The notes under the pieces are model-generated. The model was not told the origin of the DNA. It saw only the letters and a list, made by a program, of their open reading frames with translations, and ran no database searches. 64,000 bases of DNA, taken from the NCBI GenBank assembly GCA_019915135.1, contig JAHLMK010000014.1:1116001-1180000 (forward strand), written 5' to 3'. Below, in pieces: positions 23,479 to 58,843 of the stretch. The DNA comes from Strobilurus pachycystidiatus. Lineage: Eukaryota > Basidiomycota > Agaricomycetes > Agaricales > Physalacriaceae. Within the stretch, counting starts at the first letter, position 1; every line of letters starts with the position of its first letter. The translations under genes and the position numbers were made by a program.

Positions 23479-23523
23479 TCGTTTTAACTTTTGTCTCGAG
23501 AGTCGAGACTCGACTCCTCTTAG

Positions 23524-26060: not shown

Positions 26061-26063
26061 ATA

Positions 26064-28683: not shown

Positions 28684-28727
28684 CGTGGCGTGTTATTCCT
28701 GGGAGCGATAGTAGAGAGTGGACTTAT

Positions 28728-31950: not shown

Positions 31951-32441
31951 TGTCACGGTAAAAGAGGTAAGCAGATGTTCCTCCTTTGACTGTAGCAGAG
32001 ATTGACGGGGCTTAGTATAGCTCGGACTAATCCCTGTGGTGTTCGTGTGCGTGGTTGAGTGGGGTTGGGTGAAGGTCTGAAACTAGTGGGGCTCTGCGCC
32101 CTCCGAGGTATCGAGGCTGGGAACTTGATGTCGGGTGTCTTGCCCGCTGCTGTACTAAAAGATCTTTGACTTAAGTGCTTCGCTGAAGCACACTCGAGCG
32201 GTAGCGATGAAAAGTTAGATTGTGACTGGTAAGTGGGTAATTGTTAACTCTCCGGGATGCGTTCTACGCGCCCTTATATATCGTAAATTCTGATCTATTA
32301 ATAGGTGCCGGCGTATACGCGTTCTTTCGGGTACTATTGTCCTTCCGTGTACGCGCGTTCATACGCGTCAGCGCCGAGCCGCAGAATATGGCTCTTGACG
32401 CGCGTTCCTTCGGAGGCCTTTATCACGCTCCAGTCGTGACA
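31951..32441 (-). repeat. Inner element LTR (3' in element orientation)
   Basis: 491 bp, no mismatch seen with 46617-47107. Confidence 0.95.
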
Positions 32442-32509
32442 TTCGCGGGGTAGTTTTAAAACTGATCGTCCTCGATCTCTTCCAAAAAACGTTTCTGATT
32501 TTATGCTAT

Positions 32510-33597: not shown

Positions 33598-33780
33598 GGT
33601 GGTTAAGCGCTTGTGGAGACGGCATAAAGTCCAGCTTTTATCGATTTTTTAATGTGGTTGCCTGCAACCTTGAGTCTATTTAGCTTTCGAAGTCTCGGCC
33701 TCTTATACGCGTCGTTTCGGCTTTGCGTCAGCTGAATTTGTCTCATTTCCCCGTTTTTTTTCTTGATGTTTCTCTGGCCC

Positions 33781-40500: not shown

Positions 40501-43198
40501 TGGATGCCTTGAGCTCAGTGGGGGGGTTGAGAGTGTTGAGCAGTCTCTCGTCGTCTAGATGAGCTGCTCGCCGCCCCATTTGGCACAAGGTAGACCACAT
40601 TACACGTAGATCGCGTGTCTGGTAGTGGGGGTCGAACGCCAAATCCGGTGGTGGAAAATCCCGGGTTAGCGCTCTTCTGATTACTTCCCATTCGTGGTTG
40701 ACATGCGGAAGGATAGCTGGGGCGGTTATCAGGTCAGTAGTGATGATAAATAGCATAAATTTCAGGGTACCTAGTCTCTGTTCCGTGTCATTTCCTTGCG
40801 CCATCATTCCACTCTCATTGTGGTTAAGTGCATGCGTGGCAACTATCTCTCGTTGGCGGAGGTCCTGTGTGGCGAAATGATGAATTCCTTCCACATGAGT
40901 ATTGGGTCGCGGGGTTTCTGCCAGGTAGTAGATGTCGAACCCTGGTTCGAAGACATGGAAGTATGGAGGTTTGGACGGATTGTTCTCTAAGGCACGCATT
41001 TTCGTACCCGGTTCGAACCATACTCCCGAGAAGAATCTGCTCCGTGGGTTCATGTGCGGTTGAATGCGTTCTCCATCGTCTACTCCCGCCTGTAGCAGTA
41101 GTACGGGGTAGATCTCTTCCAAAGGCGTCTTTTCCTGTAGGGTGCGAGTCTTGCCGAATGGTCCCAGTTTAGCGGGTGTCCAGCTGACTCTTTCGTAGGT
41201 CTTCGGCTGCGCCTCTCGCATGTTCGCGACTCCTCCACAAATCCTGGACATTGCGTCGTCAGCATCCGTTTTGGGGTGTATCCACACCACCGGTCCCAGA
41301 ACCGGCGGTGAGTTGTTAAGCTTGACGGCTGCGTCCAGTATGATACCGGATCGGTAGGTGACTCCGTCGATGCGGTTTGGCGAGAATTGCATGTGCACGC
41401 GTCCTGTGATGAAAGTCTGCAATAGAGTTTGTTTCGCCTCCGGGTGGCTAAAAGCTGCTCAGAGATGTCCTGCAGCAGATGCTATGGCGTCGCTGATAGT
41501 CTCGGCCTGTGTCCAGCGCAGAACCGGGGACTCGGTGCGTAGAACACTCTTGTGCGCTGGCGCAGAGATCGAGCGAGCAGCCACAGGGTGCCGGCGAGTT
41601 GCGTTCATTGACACGGGTACCGCATTCAGCAGGTACTGGTGTTCCGCTAGCTGTTCGTACAGCGAGGGTACTGCGCTAGCATCCATTTGAAACCATATTA
41701 CCGACCCCTGCATGCGTTCTCGTCCAAAACAACTCATTTCGGATTCCAACATTACTCCTTGCCTAACGTCTCCGTCTTCCGGTTTGAGATTGGGTAGTCG
41801 GACCGAAGCGCGCGACAGGATCCGGGACTCCTCCGTCCAGGAAAGAGCGCGAGTATAGGTTTGGATGCCTCGAACGTCCGGAGAAATAAGTTCGCGTTTA
41901 GATCGACCGATCATGCTGTAGAGTCGGTCTGCATCCATTACTTCTCGAAGATCGGGGGCTGAATATGGAAATAGGATGGGATTGAGAACAATGGGTATGT
42001 CCGCGCCTGACTGCAGCGAAGGGCTGTTTGAGTCCACCAACTCGTTCTTGCCGGTGCCTCCTCCTGGCCGCTCGCCCGTTTCATTCTCTTCTACTCTTTC
42101 CTCCTCCATGACTTCTTCTTCCTCTTCTGCCACCACGTCCTCGATCCCAAACGCGGTCCAGAGTACTGTAGCTCTGCGAGCACGTTCTCTACCGCATCGA
42201 ATTTCTGCATCGAAGATAATTCCTGAGACTGCCGCGCCTTGTTCGTCCCTTTTGTAAGGTTCAAAGCTTGCGCCTATCCCTTTGATTTCGAAGGGATGGA
42301 AATGGGTACGCGTTTCTCGTTCGACGTGTCGCAGGGGCAACATGACTGGTTTCGTTTCCAAGAGGGTGGTTTGCGCGGCTTTGATGTACGCTCGCATGTA
42401 ATGCAAATCTTCGCGGTTTATAGGAGAAGGTCGGTACAGCGTGGTGTAGGGATACGCGCGGGTTTCTTCGGGTACTTCGGTGTCGAACGGGTCTACTTCT
42501 TCTTCTTCATCCTCCTTCGTCCCTTCGCAGGCTTTCCAGTTAAAGAGAGTTCTGCCTTCTGAAGTACTTTTAATCCGCGAAGTGAACGATTTTGATACAC
42601 ACTTACGTTGTTCGTCGCTCTCTTTCTTGACGCGATTTATCCATGATTCGGCGCCTGTCATTCCTTGCCGGTACTGGGCTAAGAAATCCTCTTTGTCGGT
42701 GTTCGTCAACTCTTCACCGCATAGCGTGTAAAACACTGGGCCGCTTCTGACCGAGCATTCTCCTCGTACGATGGCGGCGTCCAGGATCACGCCGCTTTCC
42801 AAGATGTCGTTGTACCAGCCAACGGGGTTGACGTGCACGCTATGCGCGCCGTAGATGTGGAATGGGTGGTAGGTAGTGGCGCGCTCCCGCATCGCGGAGG
42901 GATTCAGACGCGGCAACTCCTGCTGTTCTACTACGAAGTCCAAAAAGTCCGTCAAGAAGTCATCCGCCACCGCGTCTCCGAGACGAGCGAGGTTCCAGCC
43001 ATACCGCGCGGAGGCGTCGTAGTCCAAGATTTGAAAAGGGTCCAGGTGGTCAGCCGTGAAAAAGACCGACTGTGGAAAGAAATCATTCTGTGGGGGTGGA
43101 TTCGATAGTCGCACGACTGCCAGGTTCGGCGAGATGCTCGCATCTGAGACCGGCGATCGAGTATGATGATCGTTGGGGTTCGCGGAATCAGGGGTCAT
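37430..43198 (-). CDS. Undescribed multi-module gene between protease and RT (inner element)
   Basis: The ATG at 43198 (MTPDSANPNDHH) follows a TATA-like AATAAAAG near 43275-43282 and a CA-rich leader. The reading frame runs to 37430 with two TGA stops (41459 and 39950). A 48-nt GTAAGT-CAG intron fits just after RVKKESDEQ, and a 54-nt intron (39947-40000) removes the second TGA in phase; how the first is bypassed is unclear. At least five copies of a module of about 50 residues recur: cores ESGVILDAAI, VSGIIFDAEI, RQGVMLESEM, RSGIILDAAV and MEAIVDGVMY, each followed by R-rich residues and a hydrophobic strand (GPVFYT, ATVLWTAFG, GSVIWFQMD, GPVVWIHP, GRVFIMGVD). The last 700 residues are acidic with no known motif. 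No family recognised. Confidence 0.65.
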
Positions 43199-46100
43199 TC
43201 TGAACGAAACGATGTGTGTGTTTGTTTGTCTGGTGCAAGTTTGAGATGGGGGCGTTCCCGCTCGCTCCTTCGTGCTTTTATTCGTTTCTGAATGCTTCTC
43301 ACGACGCGGCTGCCAGATTACGCATGCGAGTTGTCTGATAATGTTGATTAGGATGCTTAAAATTATGCTGTGGTCGACGCGTCTTGTTTTTCGGAATTTC
43401 CCATTATCGGCTGGCGTGCCTCGGCCAGTTAGTGTGAGAGCTTCGTTCTTGCCGTGAGGGCTGTCAGCCATTTCGGCGTCTGTTTTCGACCACGTGCTTA
43501 ATTCTAGCTCTGTCGCGCTGGAATTTGGCTCGTTATCCTTTTCAGCTCCACAAATCTCGACTCTCTGCTCCACTCGAATTGAATCGGCGTCTATTAAGGC
43601 GGCATACGTTCCCTCGGGCAGACCACGCAATCCGTCCTCGTCGTCGTCCTCACTCGGCACTCTCGTAAGACGATACTCCGACGGTTTGGGAGTACCTAAT
43701 GCTTTGAATACGTGCCGTCTTCTTCCTGTGGGGTCCTTTGGGTCTTTATAGAGCAGATATGTTCCTTCAGTACGCTCATCGATGCAAATTAGGTTTCCTC
43801 GTTGCCAGGGGCGTCCTAGCAGCATTTCGAACGGGAAGGTCTCCAGTCCTACAAATAAGTTGGCTCTCGTCCTTACTTGTCCGGACCCTTGGGTGAGCTC
43901 GGCCTCTTTCACAAAGCCTCTCATGCGGGTATTCCGTCCACTTGCATCTCGCATGGTCGTTATTACTGATTCGTCTATTAAAAATCCTAGTTTTTCGGCG
44001 GCGGTCCTTTTGATTATATTTAGCTGCGAGCCCGTATCCACAATTGCCTGCACGCAATCGCCGTTTGCCCACAGTGGAATTGTTATTAACACACCTCGAT
44101 CAAACACGTCCTCAAGCTGGAACACAGTAGGCATTCCTCCCACATGTGCTATCTTAGCTTCTTCATCGTTCGATTTCTGGCTTTTGCGTTTTAACAGGTC
44201 AAACAATGATTCACTGATCTCCTTGGATGCGGCCAGCAGCTCGAATATTCGTATTGTTACGTCCGTGTTCAGGATGACTTCTAGGATATCTTTAGGTTCC
44301 GCCCTCTTGCTGATTTCGGACGTCCTTTTTGCGCTCCGGATTTTTGTTTCTTCGTCTAAGTCGTCCTTGAGTTTCCTATTGGTGGGGTTCGTCTGTGTCT
44401 TTAAAGGTACATGCTTGCCATGTTTTGTGGTGCCGTCCTTCATGTCCACATCCTGATAGCTTGGTCTGTTTGCTTGTGTAGCGGGGATTCTGACGTCTAT
44501 TGGTGTGGGCTCCGGAAACTCCATGGCTCCTTTTGTCATTCTTTTAATGGACACGCTCTCCTGATCCTGGGCTTTAGGTCTCGGTGTGTCTACCGGCACG
44601 GTTCCGGTTGTCCTTTCTGCGTCCTGGTTTCCCCTTTTTGCTTTCTGGCTGGTGGATTCCGAGGTGGGCTTGAATCTTTCGTTCGCCGCTTTTCGAGTTG
44701 CTGATCTGGTTACTACCCGTTTGGCCCTATCTACGTTGAACGCATCATAAGCATATGCTTTTCCTTTGTTCGTTACCCAGTAACTCACCTCTTCCGGTTC
44801 GCTTCCTGAGTCATTGTCTTCTTGTTGCGGTTCGTCGTAGCCATTCTCTTCCTCGAGGGCAAGTTCGGTTCCCAAATATACGTCCTGTTCTTCCTCGATG
44901 GTGGATACTTCCACGTAATTCGACCCAAACGTTTGTTCTCGATACTCCATAAAATTAGCTACCGGAGCTTGGGCTGGACTCATTCCTTGTTGTCGGTATG
45001 CGGCTTGGGCATACGATTCGCCATTTCGCCTGACGATGTTGGTTCCGTCGGGCATGAAGATTTTTCCGTCTTCGTTTCTCCCTATTAACTTCTTGTTCAC
45101 CATTTCGGATATGATTTGACAGTTTCGCATGTTATGTCCAGGTTTGTTGCACCCGTAACATGTGTTGCTGGGTGGAGGTGCGCTTCTGTATTGGGGCTGG
45201 TTAAACGGAGGATATACCGGCGCACTTCGGTCTGGTATCTTCTGTGGTTGGATTATTGCAGGCGGCGCTAACACTCTCTCTGCTCCGGGTTCCACCGTTA
45301 GGGCTTTGTAGTACAATGCCGAGTACTGCACATAGTACTGAGGATCGCTAATGGACAATCGCCCCATCTGATGAATGATATCTTCCAACTCGTTTGTGGG
45401 CTTTGAACTCTGATCTGTTACTTCCGGATCCTTAGTGTTTTCGATTCGTTTCTGCCCGTCGTGCTTCCGATGTCTCTTGTGTTTGGACTTGCTCCGAACT
45501 ACTATTTCTTCTTCTGAACTGTCCGAATCTCCCGAACGCTGATCTTCTGAGTCCGTATCGTATTCTTCGGATGAATTCGACTCGGAATCCGAGTCTACCA
45601 GGTTAGATTCAAATCGGTTTCTTTCGAAAAGCGTTTTGGCTATGTTGTGAATAGTGTTGTGGTCAAATGCCTTTGTCAGGTCTACCGTGGGATCGCGTGA
45701 AATGTGAATTTTTTCGATGTCTCTTCGAAGTTTCTTAGGGATTCCGTGCCAAAAATAGGCATTGTAATCCTCGTCCCGTATCTTCTTCTTTTCTCTAAGC
45801 CATCCTGCTATGGTGACAAACTCTCTCCGGTACTGCTTCCATCGGCTAAGAGTTTTGACTTTGGAGTGTCTCCACTTTCTAGTGAGCTGCAGCAAATGCC
45901 TTGTTTGGTACGAGTTGTTCACTTGTTCTTCATCGTAATGGTCTAAAATCTCGTCTTTCAGTGCAACATATTTGGGAGTGTGATAGTTCTTACACCCTTC
46001 CATAAACTTCACCACTTTTGGCGACATGTATTCCATCATGGTTTCTACCTTTTCCTTGTCGTCTTTTACGGCGTACTTCTGAAAAAGACGTTCTAACCTT

Positions 46101-46510
46101 TTGAAAAAAGGTTTCAATTCTCGAGGCTTGCCTTTGAATGTTTTGATGGCGTCTTTAGACCCTCCCATAGGGATATCTGCCGGCGTTCGTTGGATGGCGG
46201 TTTGGGATATAGCGACGTTCTGAAATGGTTTGAGGATGTTGTTGTGAACTGGGGGATGCTGTGAGTGTGAGGATACCGATGACTCGGTAAGTGATGATTC
46301 GCTTGTACGGTGTCTTCTGGGTGGTGAAGTCGTAAATCTGACTTCCTGTCGTAATTCTTCGTCTGAAAATAGCTGGAATGGATATTCTGCACTGCTGCCT
46401 ACGATATCTGCGTCAGTGTCCGGTTCAAAACGTGCGGAGATGTTGCTTTCGATGCTGCTGGTGCTAGAATGAGGTCGACTAATGCAAGGCGTCGATGGGT
46501 AGGATTGCAT
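41459..46510 (-). CDS. gag-pro: Ty3/Gypsy Gag-protease polyprotein, inner element
   Basis: It starts MQSYPSTPCISRPHSS. Capsid-like helices follow (FKGKPRELKPFFKRLERLF, HYDEEQVNNSYQTRHLLQL), then an acidic/serine region and a CCHC knuckle CYGCNKPGHNMRNC near residue 450. A DUF4100-like segment (DILEVILNTDVTIRIFELL) comes next. The aspartic protease has VDTGSQLNII near residue 822 and a closing FEMLLGRPWQ. After the protease come a basic/hydrophobic stretch (HSIILSILINIIRQLACVIW) and then, in the same frame, the start of the module gene at 43198; the frame does not stop until 41459. Whether Gag-Pro really reads into the module region or ends by splicing or processing near 43.3 kb cannot be told. 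Confidence 0.88.
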   Translation of the reverse strand: MQSYPSTPCISRPHSSTSSIESNISARFEPDTDADIVGSSAEYPFQLFSDEELRQEVRFTTSPPRRHRTSESSLTESSVSSHSQHPPVHNNILKPFQNVAISQTAIQRTPADIPMGGSKDAIKTFKGKPRELKPFFKRLERLFQKYAVKDDKEKVETMMEYMSPKVVKFMEGCKNYHTPKYVALKDEILDHYDEEQVNNSYQTRHLLQLTRKWRHSKVKTLSRWKQYRREFVTIAGWLREKKKIRDEDYNAYFWHGIPKKLRRDIEKIHISRDPTVDLTKAFDHNTIHNIAKTLFERNRFESNLVDSDSESNSSEEYDTDSEDQRSGDSDSSEEEIVVRSKSKHKRHRKHDGQKRIENTKDPEVTDQSSKPTNELEDIIHQMGRLSISDPQYYVQYSALYYKALTVEPGAERVLAPPAIIQPQKIPDRSAPVYPPFNQPQYRSAPPPSNTCYGCNKPGHNMRNCQIISEMVNKKLIGRNEDGKIFMPDGTNIVRRNGESYAQAAYRQQGMSPAQAPVANFMEYREQTFGSNYVEVSTIEEEQDVYLGTELALEEENGYDEPQQEDNDSGSEPEEVSYWVTNKGKAYAYDAFNVDRAKRVVTRSATRKAANERFKPTSESTSQKAKRGNQDAERTTGTVPVDTPRPKAQDQESVSIKRMTKGAMEFPEPTPIDVRIPATQANRPSYQDVDMKDGTTKHGKHVPLKTQTNPTNRKLKDDLDEETKIRSAKRTSEISKRAEPKDILEVILNTDVTIRIFELLAASKEISESLFDLLKRKSQKSNDEEAKIAHVGGMPTVFQLEDVFDRGVLITIPLWANGDCVQAIVDTGSQLNIIKRTAAEKLGFLIDESVITTMRDASGRNTRMRGFVKEAELTQGSGQVRTRANLFVGLETFPFEMLLGRPWQRGNLICIDERTEGTYLLYKDPKDPTGRRRHVFKALGTPKPSEYRLTRVPSEDDDEDGLRGLPEGTYAALIDADSIRVEQRVEICGAEKDNEPNSSATELELSTWSKTDAEMADSPHGKNEALTLTGRGTPADNGKFRKTRRVDHSIILSILINIIRQLACVIWQPRREKHSETNKSTKERAGTPPSQTCTRQTNTHIVSFRMTPDSANPNDHHTRSPVSDASISPNLAVVRLSNPPPQNDFFPQSVFFTADHLDPFQILDYDASARYGWNLARLGDAVADDFLTDFLDFVVEQQELPRLNPSAMRERATTYHPFHIYGAHSVHVNPVGWYNDILESGVILDAAIVRGECSVRSGPVFYTLCGEELTNTDKEDFLAQYRQGMTGAESWINRVKKESDEQRKCVSKSFTSRIKSTSEGRTLFNWKACEGTKEDEEEEVDPFDTEVPEETRAYPYTTLYRPSPINREDLHYMRAYIKAAQTTLLETKPVMLPLRHVERETRTHFHPFEIKGIGASFEPYKRDEQGAAVSGIIFDAEIRCGRERARRATVLWTAFGIEDVVAEEEEEVMEEERVEENETGERPGGGTGKNELVDSNSPSLQSGADIPIVLNPILFPYSAPDLREVMDADRLYSMIGRSKRELISPDVRGIQTYTRALSWTEESRILSRASVRLPNLKPEDGDVRQGVMLESEMSCFGRERMQGSVIWFQMDASAVPSLYEQLAEHQYLLNAVPVSMNATRRHPVAARSISAPAHKSVLRTESPVLRWTQAETISDAIASAAGHL

Positions 46511-46592
46511 AAACTGCTGGCACTATATGCTTGGTAGATTATCCACTCTGTTATGCACACAGTGAATGCGGAGGGAGTAAGAGATTCACTGG

Positions 46593-46610
46593 CCCTCGCG
46601 GTGGGCTCCA
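46593..46610 (-). promoter_or_regulatory. Primer binding site, inner element
   Basis: On the minus strand TGGAGCCCACCGCGAGGG begins 6 nt inside the 5' LTR. The leading TGG pairs with a tRNA CCA end. The same 18-mer is present at the equivalent place in the outer element. The implied primer has U before CCA, as in tRNA-Cys, but does not match the tRNA-Cys in this window exactly. Confidence 0.75.
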
Positions 46611-46616
46611 AATCTA

Positions 46617-47107
46617 TGTCACGGTAAAAGAGGTAAGCAGATGTTCCTCCTTTGACTGTAGCAGAGATTGACGGGGCTTAGTATAGCTCGGACTAATCCC
46701 TGTGGTGTTCGTGTGCGTGGTTGAGTGGGGTTGGGTGAAGGTCTGAAACTAGTGGGGCTCTGCGCCCTCCGAGGTATCGAGGCTGGGAACTTGATGTCGG
46801 GTGTCTTGCCCGCTGCTGTACTAAAAGATCTTTGACTTAAGTGCTTCGCTGAAGCACACTCGAGCGGTAGCGATGAAAAGTTAGATTGTGACTGGTAAGT
46901 GGGTAATTGTTAACTCTCCGGGATGCGTTCTACGCGCCCTTATATATCGTAAATTCTGATCTATTAATAGGTGCCGGCGTATACGCGTTCTTTCGGGTAC
47001 TATTGTCCTTCCGTGTACGCGCGTTCATACGCGTCAGCGCCGAGCCGCAGAATATGGCTCTTGACGCGCGTTCCTTCGGAGGCCTTTATCACGCTCCAGT
47101 CGTGACA
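46617..47107 (-). repeat. Inner element LTR (5' in element orientation)
   Basis: 491 bp, no mismatch seen with 31951-32441; followed by the GCGG duplication. Confidence 0.95.
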
Positions 47108-47111
47108 GCGG

Positions 47112-47543
47112 AGATCACTATTCCGAAGGCGCCATGGCCCGGAAGAGAGATCTTCTCCTTGATCTATTCTTAGTCGCGCGAGTTCTGACTTAGCACGAGT
47201 AAACTCCTTGAGCCTTCTTGGTAGAGTATCTCCTGCCTGGGTACTTTCCGCAGTGCTATTTCTGGTAGGCACTTGTCGTTGCATGACCAACACGGTTGAA
47301 TGAACTCCTGGTTTTAAGAGTACAACGCTTGGATAATGATATTCGGAGTTAAGGAGTATGATTGGTCGATCATACCGCGTCCTAAAGGCGCGTATCCCTT
47401 AGTCCTGGAGACTTGCCTGCGTTAAGGTAGTTTCTCCGTGTGTCTCTCTGGTCGTTGTGCTGTGACTGGAAGTCCTGGCATAGACTTCTACAGGAATCGC
47501 AAAATTCCCTGGTTCTGGCACTAGGATTCTACAATGCGTATCA
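47112..47543 (-). repeat. Outer element LTR, left copy, second part
   Basis: Resumes the outer LTR after the inner insertion and ends GCGTATCA; matches 62037-62468 with a few substitutions. Confidence 0.92.
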
Positions 47544-47552
47544 TCTCCTCTT
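47544..47552 (-). promoter_or_regulatory. Polypurine tract, outer element
   Basis: Minus strand AAGAGGAGA lies directly against the 3' LTR, the position needed for plus-strand priming. Confidence 0.65.
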
Positions 47553-47686
47553 GACTTTTGAAATGTCGTCCCCGACATCCTAGTAGTATCGCGAAAACGC
47601 TTATTCCTTCTGCCTTGGTGCAAAGCCCCAGACCTTTTGCCGTTCTATCTTTATCAAGGTCCTTGGCAATTTTCACCTTGCTCGCC

Positions 47687-47698
47687 TATAAAAACGCC
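47687..47698 (+). promoter_or_regulatory. Core promoter TATAAAAACGCC (first copy)
   Basis: A TATA box 54 bp before the ATG at 47741. The same 12-mer lies 42 bp before the next plus-strand gene (49661). Two identical copies at matching positions point to genuine Pol II promoters for the antisense genes. Confidence 0.75.
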
Positions 47699-47740
47699 TG
47701 TCTTATCTCCTGGGCGTTTTCATCCTTACTTTCCTTCGAC

Positions 47741-49250
47741 ATGGCTCCCAAATCCTGGACTTCCTGCGCTCGTCTTTTGCCTTCGGTTCCTTACCTTCCT
47801 TCCGCGAAGGAGATCGCCACTCACAAGGACGCTTCCGTCGCCGTCCTCGCCTACTCCGTAGAATACGATCCTCCTGCGACCACCCCGGACACCTTTACGG
47901 TCCTCGGGCTTCGCATGTCGATGGCTCTCCCTCGCCTCAACCGTCTCGACATCAAAAAGGCCTGCCTCAACATGGAACTTTCCAAGCAGATCACCGAGCA
48001 GGTCGATAAAATCATGGAGGCGGTCTTGGTGTGTCCCTTTTATCCTTCGTTCATGTCGTTGTTTCCTTAATTCCTCCTAGATGGCCAACACCGACATCAA
48101 GTCCGTTCCTTCCGACTCGAAGGTCCCATCCGACCTTGTCTTGTTCTTCCACAACGTCAAGAACTATCTCGGATTGACGCTCCATCTCCTTGGTATTCAT
48201 CCTCAAACGCCTTCGCACCACATTGCGCACATCTTCCAACCTTTGGTGAACACCGCCAAGAAGATGTCGAACGCGCAGTTCCAGCCTTTGCCTACTGATC
48301 ATCCCATGCATCCGACCAACGTCTTTGTTAAACCGGACCCCAAGGGCAAGGTTTGTCTTTCATACCTGTTCGTTAGGTCTTTCTTAGCGCCTTACCTCTT
48401 CACAGGGAAAAAGCAAGAAATCTCCTGAAGTTATCACCGACGCTATGGAGAAACAGGCGGAAGAAGACATCGACATGGATGCCAATGGCCGTGCGCGATT
48501 CTTCAAGCGCGAGTATTTTGATTGGGCTGACGATGTTGCAGAAGCCGACACCGACGGTGAGGAGTCCGTGATTGTCGTTGGTGAGAACATACGCTCAATT
48601 CCTTTATAGCCCTTCGCCTTCAGCTGGCTGATTTCTTCCAACAGATGTCCTTGTCCAACAACCTTTTCAAAGAGGCGGAAGCGGTGAGGCGTTTTCTACT
48701 CTTGGCCTTTTTGCCTTTACTTGGTTCTGATTGGGATTCCCCTTTAGAGCACTTCCGTGCGTTATCTTCCTTTTGCTGCCCTACCCAAGATGGACGTTAA
48801 CGCCCGTGTTTATCAGCGCGCCATGCAAACCTTGGGATCCCTTAACGGTCAGGAACTTCCTCCTAAGCGCAAGCTCCCCGACGACCTTTCTCGCCGCACC
48901 GCTAAGGCTGCTCGTCCTTCGACCTTTATGATCGAGCCGGTCTTGCTCAAGCAGTTGTCCGCTGGTACGCCCTGTTACTTGATTTGTCTTTCTCCTTTCT
49001 GACTCCTTGGATAATAGCACCCCAGTACATCAACGGTTTGCAGGCAGCCTTGGCGCAAGTCCATAAGCGCATGACCCGCTTGGCCGGCGTGGATGATCCC
49101 AATATTTCGCCGGGACTTCTCCAGTTGGAGCGTCAATACCGCCACAACATTATCTCGTCTTACAATGAGATCCGGGGTCGTATTCAGTTCGTTTTGTCGA
49201 CTCGGGATTTGTACATTTCCGCCTTAGACGGAGTGGACCAAGTCCAGTAG
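47741..49250 (+). CDS. Antisense cargo gene 1 of the outer element, 410 aa, six exons
   Basis: Exons: 47741-48028, 48081-48350, 48406-48556, 48610-48683, 48748-48964 and 49018-49250. All are GT-AG with introns of 52-64 nt; the sum is 1233 nt. It runs opposite to gag-pol. The product is not recognised. It is largely helical, with amphipathic stretches (LSKQITEQVDKIMEAVL, LRLQLADFFQQMSLSNNLF, QLERQYRHNIISSYNEIRG), two lysine-rich segments (KGKGKSKKSPE, PPKRKLPDDL) that could be nuclear signals, and no membrane helix or catalytic motif. Phase agrees at all five junctions and the codons are unbroken, which argues for a maintained gene. Confidence 0.78.
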
Positions 49251-49660
49251 TTTCCTAAAGGTGGTCTCAACCTCCTCCAAGTCTTAGCCAGTCGTCTAGC
49301 CCTTTCTCCTTTCATGTTTACACTGGCTTCGGATTTCGTTTTATCCCTTGTAAGTCCGGTAGCACTTTGTTTCCCGTAGCTACTTTAGTACACAGCCGTC
49401 TCAACACGACTACCCTTGTTTTTACCCTTTGGCGCGATCCGTTAGAACTCCGGCGATCCTTCTTAAGTCCAGTGATCGCCTTCATCAAACTAAGTAAGTT
49501 CGATCGGGAATTCCCGATCACCTTCGTCGAATCGTTCATCCTAAGTTTTTACAGTGCCTAGGTCTTTTTAATGGTCTTCGGAGTAGCTTAAACTTTATTC
49601 CTAGACTCGCTTAAGCTATTTCTTCCTTTGCCTTGGATCGTCACGGCGGTCCAGGCGCTC

Positions 49661-49672
49661 TATAAAAACGCC
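49661..49672 (+). promoter_or_regulatory. Core promoter TATAAAAACGCC (second copy)
   Basis: Identical 12-mer to 47687-47698, 42 bp before the ATG at 49703. Confidence 0.75.
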
Positions 49673-49702
49673 AGAGTTGCTTCTGGTTTTGCCATAACCG
49701 CC

Positions 49703-50822
49703 ATGCCTATCCCAATTCTTCCTTCGTTCTCTGACACTCGCCTTCGCGGCATCCCTTTGCACAACCAACCTGCTCCGGAGGAGCTCGAGGCCCTACTTGG
49801 CGAATTGGCCTTGACCAGCGCCTTGGAATTGTATACCTTCGCTCGGCGATTCAGCATCGTTATCCGCTATGACGACGGTACTCTCTCCACGGTTGACGAT
49901 ACCGCGGCGGTAGCTGCCTTAGAAGAGCCAGTACTTCATTTTGGTGAAGGGAAGCCTTTGGATGCCCCGTCCCTGCGGTATTTGTTGTATACCTTGGTGC
50001 GTAACAACGCCTTAGGCCCTTTATGCCTGCTTACTTCCACTCCAGCGTCGTCTGGCGTATATGTGGGATCCCGCCTTCTACGAAAACCCCGTCATTTACC
50101 TTGGCTTTCGCCGGTACTTCTTTCCCTTGTACTACGGAGCCGTGGAGCTCTGTAAGTCCTGGTTCCGAGCCGTCAATGGAAGGACCCTCGACGGTTTCGC
50201 CCTTGATAACTTCCTTGGGTATGGTTTGCTGGACATCCCGGGCGTGCATCCTGACTTGATGCAGGACATTATTCCCCGGTTTATGGTGCGCAAACACCTG
50301 CTCCAGAACCGCCTTGTCTGATTATTTCTTCCAGGTGGAATCCACCTTCGGCGGTTACATGGGATTCGATTCCACTCTTTGCGAGTTGATCATTGATCCA
50401 AACGCCTTGCGGATCCTCCCTGTTCAATACGATCAAACGCCTCCGTCCATCGTAACCGTTATGAAGTGGTGGCCGGAGTTCCAGCGAGCGAATTCCGCCT
50501 TGTATGGTTTTCCTAAGTTGGGAGCCTTGATGCGACCTACTCGTCTTAGGCGTTTGGCTCCCCACGTTGAAGTTCCTTCGAACACCGTTTGTCAACTCCT
50601 TCCCGCGCTTCGCACACCTTGTAACTTCTGTGCTTGTAGCGAGCCGATGAGCATTTGTCTTTTGTCACTCCATCCTTCTGGGAAATAGACTGGTCAAACG
50701 CCTCCGCACTGGACTACGAACTCCTGGAGAATTATATCATGATCCTTGATGTTAGGTCTTCGGGTTTCTTCTACGAACGCTTAGCGCGTCTCCCAGTGGG
50801 TCCTGATTGGAATCGTTTTTAG
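49703..50822 (+). CDS. Antisense cargo gene 2 of the outer element, 322 aa, four exons
   Basis: Exons: 49703-49996, 50046-50285, 50335-50586 and 50640-50822. Introns are 49, 49 and 53 nt, GT-AG; the sum is 969 nt. The start is in a good context (ACCGCCATGC). The protein is not recognised. It is rich in aromatic residues (MWDPAFYENPVIYLGFRRYF, VMKWWPEFQRANSALYGF, SFWEIDWSNAS) and globular, with an acidic N-terminal helix (EELEALLGELALTSALELY). No zinc, nucleotide or membrane motif is visible. It lies 450 bp after cargo gene 1 with its own copy of the shared core promoter, so the two may be co-regulated. Confidence 0.78.
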
Positions 50823-51230
50823 TCTTATTGCCTCCCAGAAACTCCTTTACTCGTCTAAATTTAACCACCTTAGTCTACAAAAAGACCTTAGTCGTTTAGT
50901 CTACTTAGCCAGGTCCTATAGAATTTCTCCTTAGTTCGTTTTTTATACACGCTTGTATTTCCCCTTAGACCTTATTCGAAACTCCTCTTGACTTTTTGAG
51001 AAGTTTGCCCTGCCTGGGCTTGGCCTTTAAGGCGTTTTTTGTCTTAACACCTTAGGTCTCGAGGTCTTTTTCTTTCTTCAAATAAAATCACACTTGTTTT
51101 TAATGAAAAGCAGATTTTATTTTTGTCGGGCGGGTGCGTGCGGTAGATGTACATGTAGATAAAATGTTCGTAAATTGTTCTAAGAAAGCCAGGCGGCGGC
51201 GGCGAAGGGAAAACTATCCGCGACGAAGTC
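50823..51230. other. Spacer between convergent cargo genes
   Basis: T-rich on the plus strand, probably the 3' ends of cargo gene 2 (+) and the six-cysteine gene (-). AATAAA at 51081-51086 is a possible polyadenylation signal for the plus-strand gene. Confidence 0.5.
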
Positions 51231-53438
51231 CTACTTCTTGCCGATGATCTCCCTGACCTTCTTCTGCGCGGTGGGCGGCAACGTGAAGTACCACGACAGG
51301 ATCAGGTTGACCCGGTTGGTGACTTCTTGTTGATCCATCGAGGGGAGGAAGTCGCGCGCGGAGGAGGTGGGCGCGACGGTTTGGCGCGAAGATCCTTCGC
51401 CTGCGTTGGCGGCCCTTCGCTTCTTGTCCTGCTCGGCCTTCTCTTTCTCCGTGACGAGGCGGAGGGGCGACATGAGAGAGACGCGACGCGTCGACTCTCG
51501 GCGTGCGCGCGGGGCTTCGACCTCCTCGAGTTCATCGTCGTCGTCGTCCTCCGGTACCGGGGTCGGGGCTCGTTTCGCCTTGGCCTTCCCCTTCTCCTTC
51601 TTCTTCGGGGGCTCGACCACCTCGACCTCGCTATCCTCTTCAACTTCTCTTCGACGCTTGTTAGACTGTGCCGTCGCCTCTTTCTTCTCCTGAACCCCCG
51701 ATTTGACGGCAGTTCCTCGACGCGCGGGGTAGACGTAACGCGCGAGCGAGATCTTCTTGTCGCTAACCAGCGGCTGTGCCAGTTTCTGCAGCTTGGCTCG
51801 AAGATGCCCGTCGAGACTCATCCAAGTCGGCGCCTTTGGCTCCCGGTCCCAGACAAGCAGACATGGACCGTAGATCCCTCGACTCAGGGAACACTGGTCG
51901 CAACTGGTCTTGTTGCCGCGGTCGCTCGACCGCATTCGGTTGAAGGTACATACGACGCTCCGCTGCTCGCAGGCGAGACAGTGGGCGTCGTCGTCGTACA
52001 GGGGAACACGCCTTGTCATTTTGCTGGAGGCCTCCGTCGTTCCTTCTTTGGCCTCGGTTTCTCCTTCGGCGTCCTCCTCGACCTCCGAAGGTTCCTTGTC
52101 CCGCGGTTCGACCTTGGCGATTACTTTGGGCCTGATTCGGGTGTTAGGAGGGTATAACGGCGCCACGAATCGTTTAACCACGTACTTGGAAACTGTCTTG
52201 GGCCCAAGCCCTCTCTTCGCCATGTGTCGTTTGGCGGCGGGGACTTCGACTGCCTTCATGGTTTTGGCTGGCGAGTGGGGCTTTGGTTGGGGACGGGGCC
52301 GCGTGGCTACAGGCGTGGAGGATTTGTTCGTTGCCAGTTTGTCTTCCTCCGGCTCGCTGCCTTCCTCGGCGGCCAAATCCTGCATCGTTCGTGGCGGCGT
52401 TTCTGTGCGTTTCCCGGCTTCGCCCTGCTCATCCTCCTTCTCGTCCCGTTCTGCGGCTTCCGGCTCGTCTGGTTCGTATAGTCGCAGCTGACATAAGGTG
52501 GCCGAGTCCTCGATTAAGAGGTCTAGGACATGTCGAAATGAGAAGTAGACCGGCTGAGCGGCGTTGGCGTTTTTGAGTTCAGGGATCATGCGACCCCAAA
52601 ATCCTTCGGCTACTTCGGTATGTGGTACAAAGGCCCATAACTGCTCTGGGTCGAGGAAGCAGACCTGTGCGTCGTCTTCCTCGAGTTGGAGGGCAATGTC
52701 CGCGCGCGCACGGCTGTTTCCTAGGAAGAGAGGGGGCTGGGGCGCGTTCTGTCTTGGTGCCAGCTCGACTTGTTCCATGGCACGCGTCAGGGCGATCTCG
52801 ACTCGCTCCAGAGGGTGGTCGGCTGGGTCGTCCAACGCGCTGAGCACATCCTGGAATTCCACCCAAAACACCGCATTAGCGCGGTAAGCTTTGTAGTCGT
52901 TCTCTTCCAGGATTTTACGGGTGCGCTCGGGCGTCGATGCTAGCTGGTGCGCCATCCCGAGTCCAATGCCTGCTGCTCGGAGCGCCGTGGGTACGCGGTC
53001 GTTCAAGAAGAACCCGCTGTAGTCGAACACCGGGCGTGGGGCCGGGAGTTCATCTGGTCGCGTGTTGATTTCTTGTTTGTCCTAGGACGCGTTAAAATCT
53101 CCTGTTGCCTTGTTCGTTTTGGGCTTACTCACCTTTTCTTGCTCCTGGTCGCGTTCCTCTTGCTCCTGCGCGGGTTCATCATCTTTCGCAGGGGTGGGCA
53201 ACTTCTCCTTTAGGTAAGTTAGTTCGTTGTCCTGTTCTTTTTGGGTTTTTCGCCCAAAACTTACCTTCTCCGAGGTGGGTTTTGGTGCGGGTACGGGCGA
53301 CGACATGGTGGGCGCAGTAGAAGGTGAACGGACTTGTTCGAACTTCTTTTCTTCGCTTACCACATTAATTCCGTTGCTCATCACTTTTAAGCTTTCGCGT
53401 TCGTGGCCGGGCACAGCCCTGCCCGAGGTGCGCGTCAT
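51231..53438 (-). CDS. Sense cargo gene of the outer element, 718 aa, six-cysteine cluster, two exons
   Basis: Exons 53133-53438 and 51231-53081 join by a 51-nt GT-AG intron (GTGAGT donor); the sum is 2157 nt. The N-terminus is charged and low-complexity. A globular part follows (VFDYSGFFLNDRVPTALRAA, YRANAVFWVEFQDVLSALDD). Later comes a cysteine cluster CLACEQRSVVC, then CDQC, then C: C-x2-C-x6-C-x15-C-x2-C-x9-C. This is close to a fungal Zn2Cys6 finger with a long loop. Basic nuclear-type runs follow (NKRRREVEEDSE, KKKEKGKAKAKR) and an acidic run EDDDDDELEEVE. I infer a nuclear DNA- or chromatin-binding protein; it has no counterpart in ordinary Gypsy elements. Confidence 0.75.
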
Positions 53439-53800
53439 TATTTTCAAGGGGCTACGACCCTTTTTCCTTCCATTTCCTTGTTACGACGCTCTCTTGTACC
53501 GTATTTAGAGCTTCAAATATAATATTTATTTCAAAATTATAGTCATTAGAATAAATGGGACCATTGTCCCTCTATTCCCTTTTTACTTTTTTCTGATGAC
53601 GTCCCCGTCATCCTGCCAGAGCACTTGGATTATTTCGGACACTACTGGCTCAACGGTTGAGCGTCTCGTCTTGGACTTGGTTTCAATACCCGAGCGCCGG
53701 TTCGAGTCCCTCTGCTGCCAGTCTTGCATCCTTAACTGTCAATTGCATCCAAATCTTTTTCGCACAAGTACTTTTTCATTGTTATCGTTTTTAATCCTTT
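53439..53800. other. Spacer with tRNA-like sequence
   Basis: AT-rich DNA upstream of the six-cysteine gene, then the tRNA-like segment described separately, before the end of the pol frame. Confidence 0.4.
53638..53724 (+). other. tRNA-like sequence with A and B boxes
   Basis: TGGCTCAACGG (53646-53656) fits a Pol III A box and GGTTCGAGTCC (53699-53709) is a perfect B box. The D stem GCTC/GAGC pairs. The T stem and anticodon stem do not pair properly and the 5' acceptor strand does not match CTGCTGCC. It is therefore a decayed tRNA or a tRNA-derived element head, not a functional tRNA. Confidence 0.5.
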
Positions 53801-56800
53801 TTAAGTAGTTTTTGCAATTCTATCCAGTGCTTTCCCGACTCCGCGACTGATACGCCTAAGCCTAGAGAAGAATGTCTCTCCTAAAGCAATAGGATCCCTT
53901 CTGGCCACAAAGGGTATTACTCGAAATTGAGCAATCTTATCCCTCCAGATGGTGCCATCCAGTTCGCATACCACATAATTCCCTGCGGATGTCCTGGAAA
54001 TCACCGCAAAAGGTCCCATAAAGCGTTCTTTAAACTTGGCGTTCATTTCAGGAATCAGCTTCAATCCGGGTGTTCCGTACTAACACTAATTCACCTGTTT
54101 TGAATACATAACGCGGAATGCTGTTGTTGAATTCTTCCATGAACTTCTCCGCTGCCTTCTGTTTGTTCAGAAGGACTTTAGACTTTAACCTTGCCGTATC
54201 ACCTTTGTGTTTTATTAACTGCCTTGCTCGGAGTGCAACCAAATCCGAGTGCGATACAAGGTGATCTGGCATATCCACCAGCCAAGTAATCTCCACTAGG
54301 TCCATAGGCATTATAGGTTCACAGCCCGTTACAGCATGGAAGGGAGAAGTTCCTATACTCCTTTTGATAGTGATTCGTTCTGCCCATAGGACTTCGTGTA
54401 GATACTCCGGCCAATGTTCCGGATTTCCTTTACACACCTTAAAGAGTGACTGGCGAATATCCCAATGTCCTCTTTCGACTTTACCATTTGCCTGTTTGTT
54501 ATAGGCGGTAATTAGGATACCCGTGATACCATATTTCTCCTCTATGTGTCTAAGGGCTTTCTTGATAGCCGGACCATTGTCCGTTACAATCTCCTTGATG
54601 CAGCCCCAGCGGCAGAGAATGTCCTCAAAGATCCATTCTCCTAGTGTTTCCGCTGTTTCATCTCGGAGAGCTTTGGCTTCTGGCCAACCTGTCAGACCAC
54701 ACCTTGTCACGGTAACAGCGTTGAACCCAGCCCACTTGGACGGTTGTTTCTTTTTGGCTGAATGTTCCCCGGCCTTGGGCATTCGGAAGGTGTCTATGTA
54801 GGCCCTTTCGAATATCCCAGGTGTAGAGGTGATGGTTGGCGCTATCTTTATGTTTCGTTTCTGTCTCTTTTGGCATATAAGGCAAGATCGCACATACCAC
54901 CGTATGTCTACCTCCATCCCTGGCCACCAGAACCATTTGGTAAGTAGCTGAAGCACCGAGTACTGACCTTTATGACCAGCTCTGTCATGCATAGCTTTGC
55001 AAATCGGAATCCGTTCCTTCGGTAGGAGTACACGGCGGAGATTTCCATCTAAGTGAGACCTATATAGTTTCTCGTGTCTGATTGAAAAGTCCTGACTCCA
55101 TCTTTCGAAGTCTTCATCCTTCTGGACTTTACTCCCGACCAAGTGTGGCTGGAGATCCGGCAACCTACTTTCCCAAAGGCGTTCTCGCTTGCTCTTTACT
55201 AAGCTAGGGAACTCCTCGATCTCCATCCACTCCTCAATGTCCTTGATACCAGTTAGCGCGGAGGTCCTGATCGCCTTAGATACTTTCATATGCTTTGGCA
55301 AGGGACTTCTAGCTATTTCCTGACTGTAGCCTCCCCTAGTATCGATATCATATCTGAATGTCTCAAACTCCAGAGGTTTGTCTTCGGTCGGAAGGTCCTC
55401 AGGTTCTTGATATTCAAAGCTATTGATTCGATCGTCCTCATCCCCTTGAGCGGGTCTGGGTATTACTTCGTCGTTCTCCGAAGCAGGACGGCGGCTAAGA
55501 CCGTCTGGACCATGGACTTTTCCTGGTACGTGTATAAGCTTGAAATGGTACATCAAAATCTCCTCTGCCCATCTTTGTAGGTTGGCATTGGCTAGGGAGT
55601 CAATATTCGACAGCATCCCTTTGATGTACTTAGCATCTGTTTCAATCTCTAGTTTTCTACAACCTAGGAGATAGTACTTACACGCGGACAATGCCCGGAA
55701 CAGGCCAAACAATTCCCTCTTCGCTTGGGAGTACCTGGCTTCTCGGTCGTTGAGCGTTAAGGACATGAACTTGGCATAGTATCTTTTCTTTGGGTCATCC
55801 GGATCTACTTGGGATAGGTAATATCCTACCGCTTGGTAAGAAGTATCTACCGACAAGGTGATTGGAGTTGACCATTCGTAATTCAAGGGTTTTAGCATCG
55901 GACAAGTCCTAACTGCTTCCTTGAGGAGGTCCATACTAGCTTGTTCAATATCCGTCCATTGAAACTTCGTTATGTCCTTAGTCAACCGGGTAAGAGGTAA
56001 GGCTTTCTTCGAGTAGTCTTTCACGAAGGCCCTGAAGATCCCCGCGGTCCCTAGGAAAGCTCTAACTTCGGTCAGTGCCTTACAAGGTGGCCAATCAGAA
56101 ATCACCTTAACTCTTTCTTCTGCCGGTTTCCTTCCTTCATAAGTGCAGACATGTCCTACGACTACTATTTCTTCCGCACATATGATGGCTTTATGTCCAG
56201 AAAAGGTACCTCCGGCATATTTCATTCGTTGTATAATACGATTCATATTTAGAAGGTGTTCCCAGACAAAGCGCCTAACTTCTGGATGCCCCGGAAGCGT
56301 TTCATAACTTCCATCCGGCTGTACATATCTAGTGGCTGGGCCACGGACAGGTACATCATCAATGTAAGGTCTTGTGAACGCCGGTATCTCATCCATTAGA
56401 ATGGTTGTAACATCGTCGTGAAAGATCGGAACCGAATTGGTCCATCCCATAGGTAAAGTCTTTAATCGTAAAGCACCATAAGGTGTTGAGAAGGTAGTCA
56501 TATCGCGAGAGGCAGTGGCTAGTAGCCGTTCATCATACCCGACATACAAGTCCAGTGTACCTCTACAGGCTCTGCCTGCGAACGCTTCGGCCAACTCTTC
56601 TGTAGCAGGAGGCAACCCCGAATGTGCGATGGTTACCGCGTTAAGGGGTTCCAGGCTATGCACCAAGCGGAGTTTCTTTCCATCCTTTTTCACTACACAG
56701 AACCACCTTGAGCGATATGAAGAGTTCGAAGGTTCATATACGCCTGAGTCTAGTTTGTGCTTGATTATCTTACAGACTTCATCGTAGATTCCCGGGGGTA

Positions 56801-57647
56801 TAGGTATGTTCCTTAACACCCACGGAGTATATGGAATAACGGGTATATCGACAGGTGGAAAGTACTCTGGGTCAAAATGTCCTTTTTCCATTTCCTCCCA
56901 GGCGAATCCCGCATTCTGTCCACACATAAGTTGGTCTACAATTCGTCTTTCCACCGAGGTCAGAAAATCTCCAGGGTGATCCGCTTGTAGTTGTTCACGT
57001 CTTTCCGCGGTATACCTCCCAGTCGGTACGAAGGGCGGGGGATCTGGACTGAGTTCCGGCATTCCTGCTAGAGGATCGCCTTTGATATGTCGTTTGATCC
57101 TGAATTCTTCGGGTAGAGTCCCCAGATGGGCTTTGGTTTTCAGCGCCATTGGTTTATACTTTTTCCCGGCGAACACGCCTCGTACTGGCCGTTGACTTTC
57201 CAGCTCCAGGAACTTGTCCTGTGCTTCCGTCACATAATCTTTAGGTAGCGTCACTGAAAGTCCTGAGAATGATTTGTGCAACTCCTGTGGTACCCCATAG
57301 AAGAGATTCATGGTTACTGTGGCGTGGGACTTAGTTCGTTCTTGATCTTCGGCAATTCCCTTTATGTTAAACACCTTTCGAAATCCTTGTACCTTGGTTG
57401 TGTTGATTTCTTTCAATAAACCCCGAGGCGTTACCAGGCTAGCTGGGACGGTTCCCGGCACCGTAGAGGCTTTCATAAAGGCATGTTGTTTCCTAAGGCT
57501 TTTTGCCGCCTTGTCTATGTATGCAGGAGATTTCTTCAGGTAGAGGGAGGTTAAGGCCCCTTCTCGGAAGTGTGCTTCATTTTCTCCTGGTACCCATGTT
57601 TGCTTGACTTCTACATTACCATTAGGTGATCTTTCCAGGATCAACAC
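53801..57647 (-). pseudogene. pol: Ty3/Gypsy Pol of outer element, frameshifted near its end
   Basis: About 1199 residues are open (54048-57647). RT has the YIDDVPV active site near residue 426; RNase H has LSVDTS near 597; integrase has HDRAGH with CLIC zinc ligands near 885-927 and catalytic D (YIDTFRM), D (VTDNGPA) and E (VERGHW). The frame breaks at about 54050-54064 (LVRNTRIE), and the GPY-type tail (ERFMGPFAVISRT) continues in another frame to 53801. A one-base indel explains this. It is close in architecture to the inner pol but clearly diverged, so the two are separate lineages of one clade. The entry from the protease also needs a frame change at 57650-57670. Confidence 0.88.
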
Positions 57648-57667: not shown

Positions 57668-58318
57668 CTACTTCCTTGAGTCCAGGTGAAAACCCTGTTG
57701 CCCCGGTGGTAACATATGTCTAGGTATTTGTCCTCGTCGGTACGACGGTATGGTCAACTTCTTGCCGTTGGTATTATCGGTCAGGGTTCCCAAGGCGTTT
57801 CCATTGGACAAGTTCGTAATTACCAGGTTGGATACAATCTCGAATGGTCTACCTAATAGGACTTCATAGGCGGGGTCCTCCAGAACATGTAACTGGAGGT
57901 AGTACACAATCCCTTCGAAGTCGAAGGGTACATTGCGGGCTAACCCAAGTGTACTAGTCCGTCCTTTATCCGCGCTTTCCATGGTTATTTTGAAGTTCGG
58001 ATCATAAGAAACCCCTAGTTCTAACGCAGCTTTCAGCGAGATTGAGGCGATTTGAGAACCCCCGTCAATGAGACTTTCCTTCTTTCCGTTGCGGTTTATC
58101 ATAGGCCAGAAAGTCCTTAGATCAGCGTTCTCTGGTGCAATGTTTCCCGTAGCCATGTGGAATGGTCCAGTATATTGCCCTCCAGTGAGGTTTATGAACT
58201 GTTCCACCGCATCGTGAACTACAATTCCTCCAATCGGCAAGTTGTCTCGTGCTTGTAAGTTAACTGAGTATAACTCCGGTTGGTAGTCGTCTTGTACCGT
58301 TTCGGTCAATTCCTCCTG
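57668..58318 (-). CDS. pro: Retroviral-type aspartic protease, outer element
   Basis: About 213 residues. The active-site motif is LIDGGSQIAS, with D-G-G in place of the usual D-T/S-G, followed by YEVLLGRPFE at the expected spacing. A single in-frame TAA at 58319-58321 separates it from the preceding frame. That is either a lesion or a readthrough point; the sequence after it is TAACAGGAGG on the minus strand. G in place of T/S at the second position also occurs in active fungal elements of this type, so activity cannot be excluded. Confidence 0.75.
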   Translation of the reverse strand, partial: QEELTETVQDDYQPELYSVNLQARDNLPIGGIVVHDAVEQFINLTGGQYTGPFHMATGNIAPENADLRTFWPMINRNGKKESLIDGGSQIASISLKAALELGVSYDPNFKITMESADKGRTSTLGLARNVPFDFEGIVYYLQLHVLEDPAYEVLLGRPFEIVSNLVITNLSNGNALGTLTDNTNGKKLTIPSYRRGQIPRHMLPPGQQGFHLDSRK

Positions 58319-58843
58319 TTAGAGTACCGAAACCGGCGCATTTCGTTTTCTAATGAAGTCCGATATGCTTTGCTGCCACGGAGGATTTGTTGCTAAAAGA
58401 GCTTCCGGAAGTAAGAACTTCCATGCTTCTCTCCAGCTCGGATTCTTGTGTAGCAATTCTTCCGCTAAGCTGCGGCGTTGGAAACTTTTGACCTTCTGCT
58501 GAGGGTGTAAGGTCTTCTGGTTCGTTGGTGTACTCGAAGGTAGAGTTGAATCTACCTTAGACTGCGCTGCAGGCGCGGGTTCTTCCATAGCCAGAATCTC
58601 TTCAAGAATTTCCTGATCCACTGGAGGTATTTCTTGAGTGACTTCGGGTTTGGTGAAGGTTACCTTTGGCGATACCGGGGCTTTAGGAGGTATTACCACG
58701 GAGACCCGGTCCCGAGGCCAAGGTATTTTTGTCTTTTCCGGTGTTGAAACCGGTTTGGAATGATTATCTTTATTACTTTGTCGAGTTTGAACAGTCAATT
58801 GGCTCTCCGGAGGAGTCTGTGCACTAGGCACTCCTTCCTTCAT
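58319..58843 (-). CDS. Second frame of Gag region, outer element, 174 aa
   Basis: Its ATG (58843-58841) overlaps the gag stop by one base (TGATG on the minus strand), a termination-reinitiation arrangement. The product is proline/lysine-rich (PWPRDRVSVVIPPKAPVSPK), then acidic, then helical (RRSLAEELLHKNPSWREAWK), in the position of the DUF4100-like linker of related elements. It ends at TAA 58319-58321. Confidence 0.6.
   Translation of the reverse strand: MKEGVPSAQTPPESQLTVQTRQSNKDNHSKPVSTPEKTKIPWPRDRVSVVIPPKAPVSPKVTFTKPEVTQEIPPVDQEILEEILAMEEPAPAAQSKVDSTLPSSTPTNQKTLHPQQKVKSFQRRSLAEELLHKNPSWREAWKFLLPEALLATNPPWQQSISDFIRKRNAPVSVL

Follow-up and report, generated by a model that had tools for sequence, protein, structure and literature searches.

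Antisense extra open reading frames (ORFs) are already known in long terminal repeat (LTR) retrotransposons, among them the Retand/Grande elements and those carrying brtn. The sections of PMC7264820 and PMC11963269 that deal with Retand, Grande and RIRE2 describe Ty3/Gypsy elements with a long region between pol and the 3′ LTR, with antisense ORFs in every Retand cluster studied, for which a regulatory role is suggested, an antisense promoter reported for gene23 of Grande, and a TRP28 domain encoded by 97% of the Retand clusters. An extra antisense gene, brtn, is cited (Zhao et al. 2011) for Boty-like elements of Botrytis cinerea in passages of PMC7264820 and PMC8365987, the latter placing it in BcGypsy1. 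The module described here is a variant of that kind, comprising three genes (g1, g2 and g3) in a Ty3/Gypsy element of the fungus Strobilurus pachycystidiatus, within a stretch of 64,000 nucleotides, hereafter the window (assembly GCA_019915135.1, contig JAHLMK010000014.1, positions 1,116,001 to 1,180,000, forward strand; coordinates below are those of the window). With a probability of roughly 0.72, the three genes form a conserved module of this Gypsy lineage that serves the element in trans and is not cargo kept for the host.

The element resembles the Retand, Grande and RIRE2 types, as portrayed in the sections cited, in being Ty3/Gypsy with antisense ORFs between pol and the 3′ LTR, but differs from Retand and Grande in harboring two antisense multi-exon genes together with a spliced sense gene. 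The word "intron" does not appear in the main text of PMC7264820 and PMC11963269, and the TRP28 domain (PF04195) typical of Retand was not among the Pfam matches of g1 and g2 in the two element families (A and B) considered here. Boty with brtn, compared by description only, is likewise an LTR element of a fungus and carries an additional gene in antisense, though a single such gene is named in the passages cited. The Cer1 element of C. elegans, in the portion of PMC10309623 concerned with it, is an LTR element encoding CERV, a spliced accessory protein with no evident relatives beyond its own group, which is required to export the genomic RNA that must exit the nucleus unspliced; that portion differs from the present case in deriving CERV from a sense transcript with its first exons in the gag reading frame, and does not mention antisense genes. 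By analogy, CERV would be the closest worked example for the role proposed below. The Ogre elements, presented in part of PMC6431247 as very large plant LTR elements whose one or two additional ORFs have no known function, are similar in size class and in their extra ORFs and differ in host kingdom. In a literature search conducted mostly outside subscription papers, no account was found of a Gypsy element with multi-exon antisense genes, or of a comparable hypervariable accessory gene.

Gene structure of the module

The outer element spans 16.6 kb, with 13.2 kb of internal sequence and two LTRs of 1.7 kb each, so that the term "giant" used in the first-pass annotation holds only in a relative sense. 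A 4-bp duplication, ACGC, flanks its LTR pair, which is 99.3–99.5% identical, and the order within pol is that of Gypsy elements, with RNase H (564–700) ahead of the integrase zinc-binding domain (877–931), both above the Pfam cut-off. The 3′ LTR is interrupted by a nested element of 15.2 kb. A search of the genome (51.8 Mb, 61 contigs) with the g1 region returned 41 rows, made up of 16 full-length copies, six partial rows and 19 rows of a second family, family B. A total of 18 further family A regions were compared, 15 of them full copies, which together with the window copy give the 16 copies to which the counts below refer; the partial copies L024, L025 and L026 stand outside the g1 and g2 counts. 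The features of the outer element are as follows.

30688–31950, minus strand: 3′ LTR, part 1, 1,263 bp, 99.5% identical to 60773–62036
47107–47543, minus strand: 3′ LTR, part 2, 99.3% identical to 62032–62468
47687–47698, plus strand: TATAAAAACGCC ahead of g1, 54 nt 5′ of the ATG, exact in 15/16 copies
47741–49250, plus strand: g1, six exons, 410 aa, antisense to gag-pol
49661–49672, plus strand: TATAAAAACGCC ahead of g2, 42 nt 5′ of the ATG, exact in 14/16 copies
49703–50822, plus strand: g2, four exons, 322 aa, antisense to gag-pol
51116–51121, minus strand: AATAAA poly(A)-like word in the tail-to-tail g2/g3 spacer, kept in 16/16 copies
51231–53306, minus strand: g3, three exons and two introns, sense with gag-pol, with a cysteine cluster, hypervariable among copies
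54048–57647, minus strand: pol, with RNase H and integrase domains and the reverse transcriptase region upstream in the same ORF
57668–58309, minus strand: aspartic protease-like ORF, weak Pfam match below the cut-off
58843–60204, minus strand: gag, zinc-knuckle match below the Pfam cut-off
60773–62468, minus strand: 5′ LTR, 1,696 bp, ends TGATA...TATCA, 4-bp target-site duplication ACGC

Read in the plus direction from the 3′ LTR to pol, the order is thus g1 (+), g2 (+) and g3 (−), with gag, the protease-like ORF and pol all on the minus strand. The pol of the window copy gave no RVT_1 match in Pfam at E 0.1, while that of the nested element gave one, and the pol frame stops at 54048, short of a C-terminal part found in copy L010; given this early end, the window copy may be non-autonomous.

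The first-pass annotation had described two plus-strand multi-exon genes opposite gag-pol, and their exon models were reproduced exactly (g1: 47741–48028, 48081–48350, 48406–48556, 48610–48683, 48748–48964 and 49018–49250; g2: 49703–49996, 50046–50285, 50335–50586 and 50640–50822), with the five junctions it named in agreement. All eight introns are GT-AG and phase-consistent as it had stated, with lengths of 49–64 nt and phases of 0,0,1,0,1 in g1 and 0,0,0 in g2. The promoter word that it took to be shared, TATAAAAACGCC, does precede both start codons in family A, and TATAAAA is kept upstream of both genes in 16/16 copies. The word occurs 41 times in the genome, as against 4 for its reversed control, with 34 of the 41 occurrences inside family A copies. 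The exact word was however seen in family A only, family B as examined having TATAAAAGG upstream of g1 in L027 and L028 and no TATAAA ahead of g2 in L027.

The spacer between g2 and g3 (51081–51121) carries convergent poly(A)-like words, the plus-strand one being altered in 6/16 copies, and a full-length genomic RNA has to read through the minus-strand AATAAA.

Constraint on g1 and g2 in two element families

Both antisense genes are maintained across family A, as the first-pass annotation had proposed. Intact g1 was found in 14/16 copies (L020 lacks 5 bases and L023 lacks 20) and intact g2 in all 16, and the GT and AG of all eight introns are preserved in 16/16. The per-site frequency of segregating sites is 0.036, 0.022 and 0.127 at the first, second and third codon positions of g1 and 0.050, 0.015 and 0.207 at those of g2, with inner introns (0.142 in g1 and 0.137 in g2) close to third positions, and the pooled ratio of nonsynonymous to synonymous polymorphism (pN/pS) is 0.10 for g1 and 0.05 for g2.

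The same two genes were recovered in family B, at 19 places with 67–68% identity to the g1 region. At locus L027, divergent LTR sequence, g1, g2, g3 and the pol end follow in the same order and on the same strands as in family A, and the proteins of the two families are 61% (g1) and 49% (g2) identical. The family B models, picked by similarity to family A, have the same intron phases (0,0,1,0,1 and 0,0,0), while intron 3 of g1 is shifted, exons 3 and 4 being 178 and 50 nt against 151 and 74 in family A. Of 14 family B copies, 13 have an intact g1 and all have an intact g2, with pN/pS of 0.088 (g1) and 0.160 (g2). Between the families, pS reaches 0.67 (g1) and 0.76 (g2), so that synonymous sites are near saturation, with pN of 0.26 and 0.35, respectively. 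A genome search with g2 gave 188 matches, and among the matches listed 36 start at residue 1 with 79–99% identity to family B. The pN/pS values in both families rule out chance ORFs, and the 41 genomic rows rule out capture of a host gene by a single copy.

Variants found in at least two copies have lower nonsynonymous to synonymous (N/S) ratios (family A: 0.057 for g1 and 0.020 for g2; family B: 0.063 and 0.122) than singletons (family A: 0.178 and 0.122; family B: 0.157 and 0.265). Such a difference would be expected for a gene serving the element, with constraint partly relaxed after insertion, and offers moderate support for that reading.

Three family B copies (L029–L031) share one common internal deletion that leaves g1 with its first 90-odd bases and g2 with its last 55 or so, while LTR, g3 and pol sequence are retained. 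Since this derivative multiplied without most of g1 and nearly all of g2, their products are not needed in cis, and it was presumably amplified after the deletion with help in trans. The first-pass annotation had regarded the genes as cargo, a term that does not suit constraint in 16 + 14 copies of two families; the multiplied derivative also fits trans-acting accessory proteins better than a passenger. Also in family B, positions 1–5032 of L028 form a 5 kb palindrome with arms of about 2.5 kb, 99.4% identical, that include LTR and the start of g1.

g3 and its divergent versions

The third gene lies inside the interval covered by the first-pass annotation, which did not mention it. Its start was placed at the ATG at 53306, which the versions share; some of them can also be read in longer form from an ATG further upstream. 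The two-intron model was found in 14/14 family A copies with a complete g3 region and in L027; L014, L019, L024 and L026 (anchors missing or split) and L025 fall outside the g3 counts, and the modelling covered family A copies and L027, not L029–L031. As the search fixed the acceptor word of intron 1, it tests frame and length rather than acceptor choice, and the acceptors of intron 2 are not unique. Intron 1 measures 52, 53 or 57 nt in close relatives with the spliced frame undisturbed, which argues for its real removal from the g3 mRNA. Interrupted main frames were observed in L012 (402 aa) and L022 (287 aa), both excluded by length from the protein alignment and kept in the DNA block comparison, and L015 has a stop near the g3 start, ahead of the motif used for the splicing models.

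The element hence keeps ten introns, eight antisense and two sense. The first-pass annotation had argued that antisense introns cannot be spliced from the genomic RNA, and this stands, but antisense placement alone is insufficient to account for intron survival because g3 keeps two introns in the sense direction. Either the reverse-transcribed RNA would escape splicing, or spliced RNA would not be used. Ogre elements have an intron in gag-pol.

Six cysteines, spaced CX2CX6CX15CX2CX9C (X17 in family B), are present in 13/13 aligned g3 sequences, together with basic stretches. The Zn2Cys6 binuclear cluster has the spacing CX2CX6CX5-12CX2CX6-8C, so the g3 loops are longer and the cluster is termed Zn2Cys6-like here; Pfam Zn_clus scored 11.3 bits against a cut-off of 21 in one g3 version and gave no match in the window or L027 version.

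Substantial divergence between copies was observed in g3: at least four versions, deeply diverged and recombining, were distinguished, against roughly 98% identity between copies in g1, g2 and gag-pol. The lowest pairwise identities among 14 family A copies are 0.96–0.97 in the 5′ flank, g1 and g2, 0.89 and 0.87 in the spacers either side of g3, and 0.45–0.53 in the g3 blocks. The integrase end falls to 0.65 owing to L023, whose element match stops at 54276. Over gag-pol, nine other full-length rows stand at 98% and partial family A rows at 96–100%. With a grouping threshold of 88%, four N-terminal types (six, four, two and two copies) were obtained, combined with three linker types; the window g3 joins N type A to linker B, indicating that versions recombine. 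For the L010 type the steep drop in identity begins close to the ends of the g3 coding sequence; for the others it begins close to the 5′ end and in mid-gene. In the N-terminal part, the synonymous divergence (dS) is 1.26 when the window type is compared with the L009 type and is saturated in the comparisons with L017 and L010, with ratios of nonsynonymous to synonymous divergence (dN/dS) of 0.10–0.20 within family A where computable. The exception, L010 against L020 (1.58), rests on very few changes (dN 0.010, dS 0.006), and the N-terminal dN/dS values of family A give no convincing sign of positive selection. The L010 protein is 37% identical to that of the window and 31.5% to that of family B, similar to the 36.5% identity between the families. 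The pattern of divergence confined to g3 does not hold in family B, where L027 and L029 are 98–100% identical in the compared LTR and 5′ region and 74–94% across g3, while L027 and L028 are 97–100% identical in aligned g3 stretches and 89–98% around g2 and the spacer.

Two accounts of this diversity were weighed. It might be a mere trace of recombination with other element families, without selection for variety, to which we give a little under an even chance. The mosaic g3 segments, the mostly purifying constraint within versions (the N-terminal dN/dS above) and the less clean picture in family B, where L027 and L028 agree in g3 yet differ more at g2 and the spacer, speak for this account. 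Against this, deep departures in the 14 family A copies are confined to the g3 coding sequence, with at least 96% identity in LTR flank, g1 and g2 and at least 87–89% in the spacers, the integrase end of L023 being the sole other low block, and with the nine other full-length gag-pol rows at 98%; moreover, no donor family was found, the odd version having four matches of 95–100% in or beside family A copies and all others at 39% or below. Alternatively, and more tentatively, g3 could be a specificity gene of the retrotransposon in ancient balanced polymorphism, in which versions as old as the split of families A and B circulate by recombination because those that are rare evade a silencing factor of the host or avoid being excluded by copies already in residence, and g1 and g2 form the constant nuclear machinery; this is a rather doubtful proposition at present.

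Role of the module and other features of the window

Read from sequence, the likeliest role of the module would be nuclear, because g1 and g3 carry basic stretches resembling nuclear localisation signals. In g1, the stretch KRKL...RR..KAARP is present in both families and, by eye, reads as such a signal. Under the proposed mechanism, g1 and g2 would be transcribed antisense from their own TATA promoters and spliced, and their proteins would act in trans for propagation of the element; g3 would be a sense spliced gene for a zinc-cluster-like protein, of which the N-terminal half or the whole is exchanged among element copies. These accessory proteins would sustain transcription of the element and the export of its RNA in unspliced form, in the manner of CERV in Cer1, or counter host silencing. 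Rev in HIV has a comparable role in the export of unspliced RNA. Handling of the element's own RNA as the only role is possible, at odds clearly short of even.

Three alternatives to an element-serving module were considered. That the genes benefit the fungus and are kept by host-level selection is unlikely: g1 and g2 do look like ordinary fungal genes, with short introns and their own TATA boxes, and neither product resembles Gag, Pol or Env, a statement of the first-pass annotation confirmed to the extent that no likeness was detected by Pfam, comparison with the gag profile or the search for membrane-spanning stretches. A host benefit would however be an unlikely reason for intact genes in almost every one of the 16 + 14 copies; the genes also occupy the same place in a second family, and shared variants are more constrained than singletons. 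The first-pass annotation had also allowed for homologues present only as ordinary host genes; none of the 65 genomic g3 matches was shown to be one, 56 lying no further than 6.5 kb from g2 or from a family A g1–g2 block. Among the other nine, three are deletion copies, three lie 11–27 kb from L014 and L019, where g3 is truncated or split, two lie 6.5 and 8.1 kb from a family B g2, and one (C18:743831) was left unplaced, while g1 was not searched separately at low stringency. Slightly less likely still is the view that the antisense transcripts rather than the proteins matter, pairing with the genomic RNA to tune silencing or copy number, for which the antisense orientation itself speaks, as does the antisense regulation proposed for other LTR elements in the sections cited of PMC7264820; variation is nevertheless depressed at codon positions 1 and 2 and not in introns or third positions, and the amino acids are conserved between families A and B. 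The least probable is that g3 is a degenerate or replaced envelope gene. It is spliced, on the sense strand, between pol and the 3′ LTR, with a variable N-terminal half swapped by recombination; but a nuclear protein is suggested by its basic stretches and its cluster of cysteines, and no membrane-spanning segment was found, the 19-residue hydropathy maxima being 1.10 (g1), 1.07 (g2) and 0.86 (g3 main exon), which rules out an Env-like g3.

Several points weigh against the reading of g1–g3 as an element-serving module with a nuclear role. Singleton variants are constrained too, so the case for selection at the level of propagation is only moderate, and L029–L031 demonstrate that amplification without intact g1 and g2 is possible, so these genes may assist the element without being indispensable to it. 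The motifs behind the nuclear role were identified by eye. Searches of a protein database with g1, g2 and g3 gave no match at E 0.001, which, with no positive control, tells little; IMG/VR scans with g1, g2 and pol gave none and are uninformative, as the control pol also gave none. Profile searches of the PDB with g1 and g2 returned 0 matches up to E 1, and neither gene has a Pfam match above the cut-off, g1 having a weak one below it (Ino80_Iec3, E 0.039). An AlphaFold model of the N-terminal part of g3 from a single sequence (mean pLDDT 36.7) was not used. Separately, descent of g1, g2, g3 and gag from one another as copies was ruled out with hhalign (probabilities 0.1–0.5%).

Introns are expected to be lost from anything that moves via a spliced RNA copy, yet ten are kept here, and two of the three intron-bearing genes are under clear protein-level selection in two families, which makes the escape of genomic RNA from splicing a testable question. 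The pattern of g3, one ancient exchangeable gene where the rest of the element is uniform, resembles an arms race at the transposon level and offers natural allele swaps. Repeat annotation that masks such elements would conceal all three genes.

Two further features of the element are listed below.

53634–53760, plus strand: tRNA-like unit in the g3–pol spacer, antisense to pol, with A box TGGCTCAACGG, B box GGTTCGAGTCC and then a T run
31951–47107, minus strand: nested Gypsy-type element, 15.2 kb, identical 491-bp LTRs, inside the outer 3′ LTR

Both boxes are exact in 11/14 family A copies, at a distance of 52–53 nt, and the unit was not found in family B copies L027–L031. Of its 19 genomic matches, 17 are found no more than 5.2 kb from a family A block, and the remaining two, at split copies, are 11 and 27 kb away; with all 19 at or near family A copies, a short interspersed element (SINE) is ruled out. 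ARAGORN called no tRNA there in the window or in 17 loci, and Rfam gave 0 matches up to E 1 for window positions 30000–63000. A Pol III-type unit or an insulator is possible.

The nested element has two long extra ORFs between protease and RT without a Pfam match, and an apparently repeated motif, seen by eye, near "SGVILDA...GPVxW". Pfam also identified a DUF6535 gene along with F-box-like and MYND-like matches below the cut-off, as would probably suit an agaricomycete genome, and elsewhere in the window ARAGORN placed a tRNA-Cys gene at 23383–23480 on the plus strand. Direct repeats of 1,091 bp, 100% identical and 2.7 kb apart, at 24970–29818 look like a recent small LTR element.

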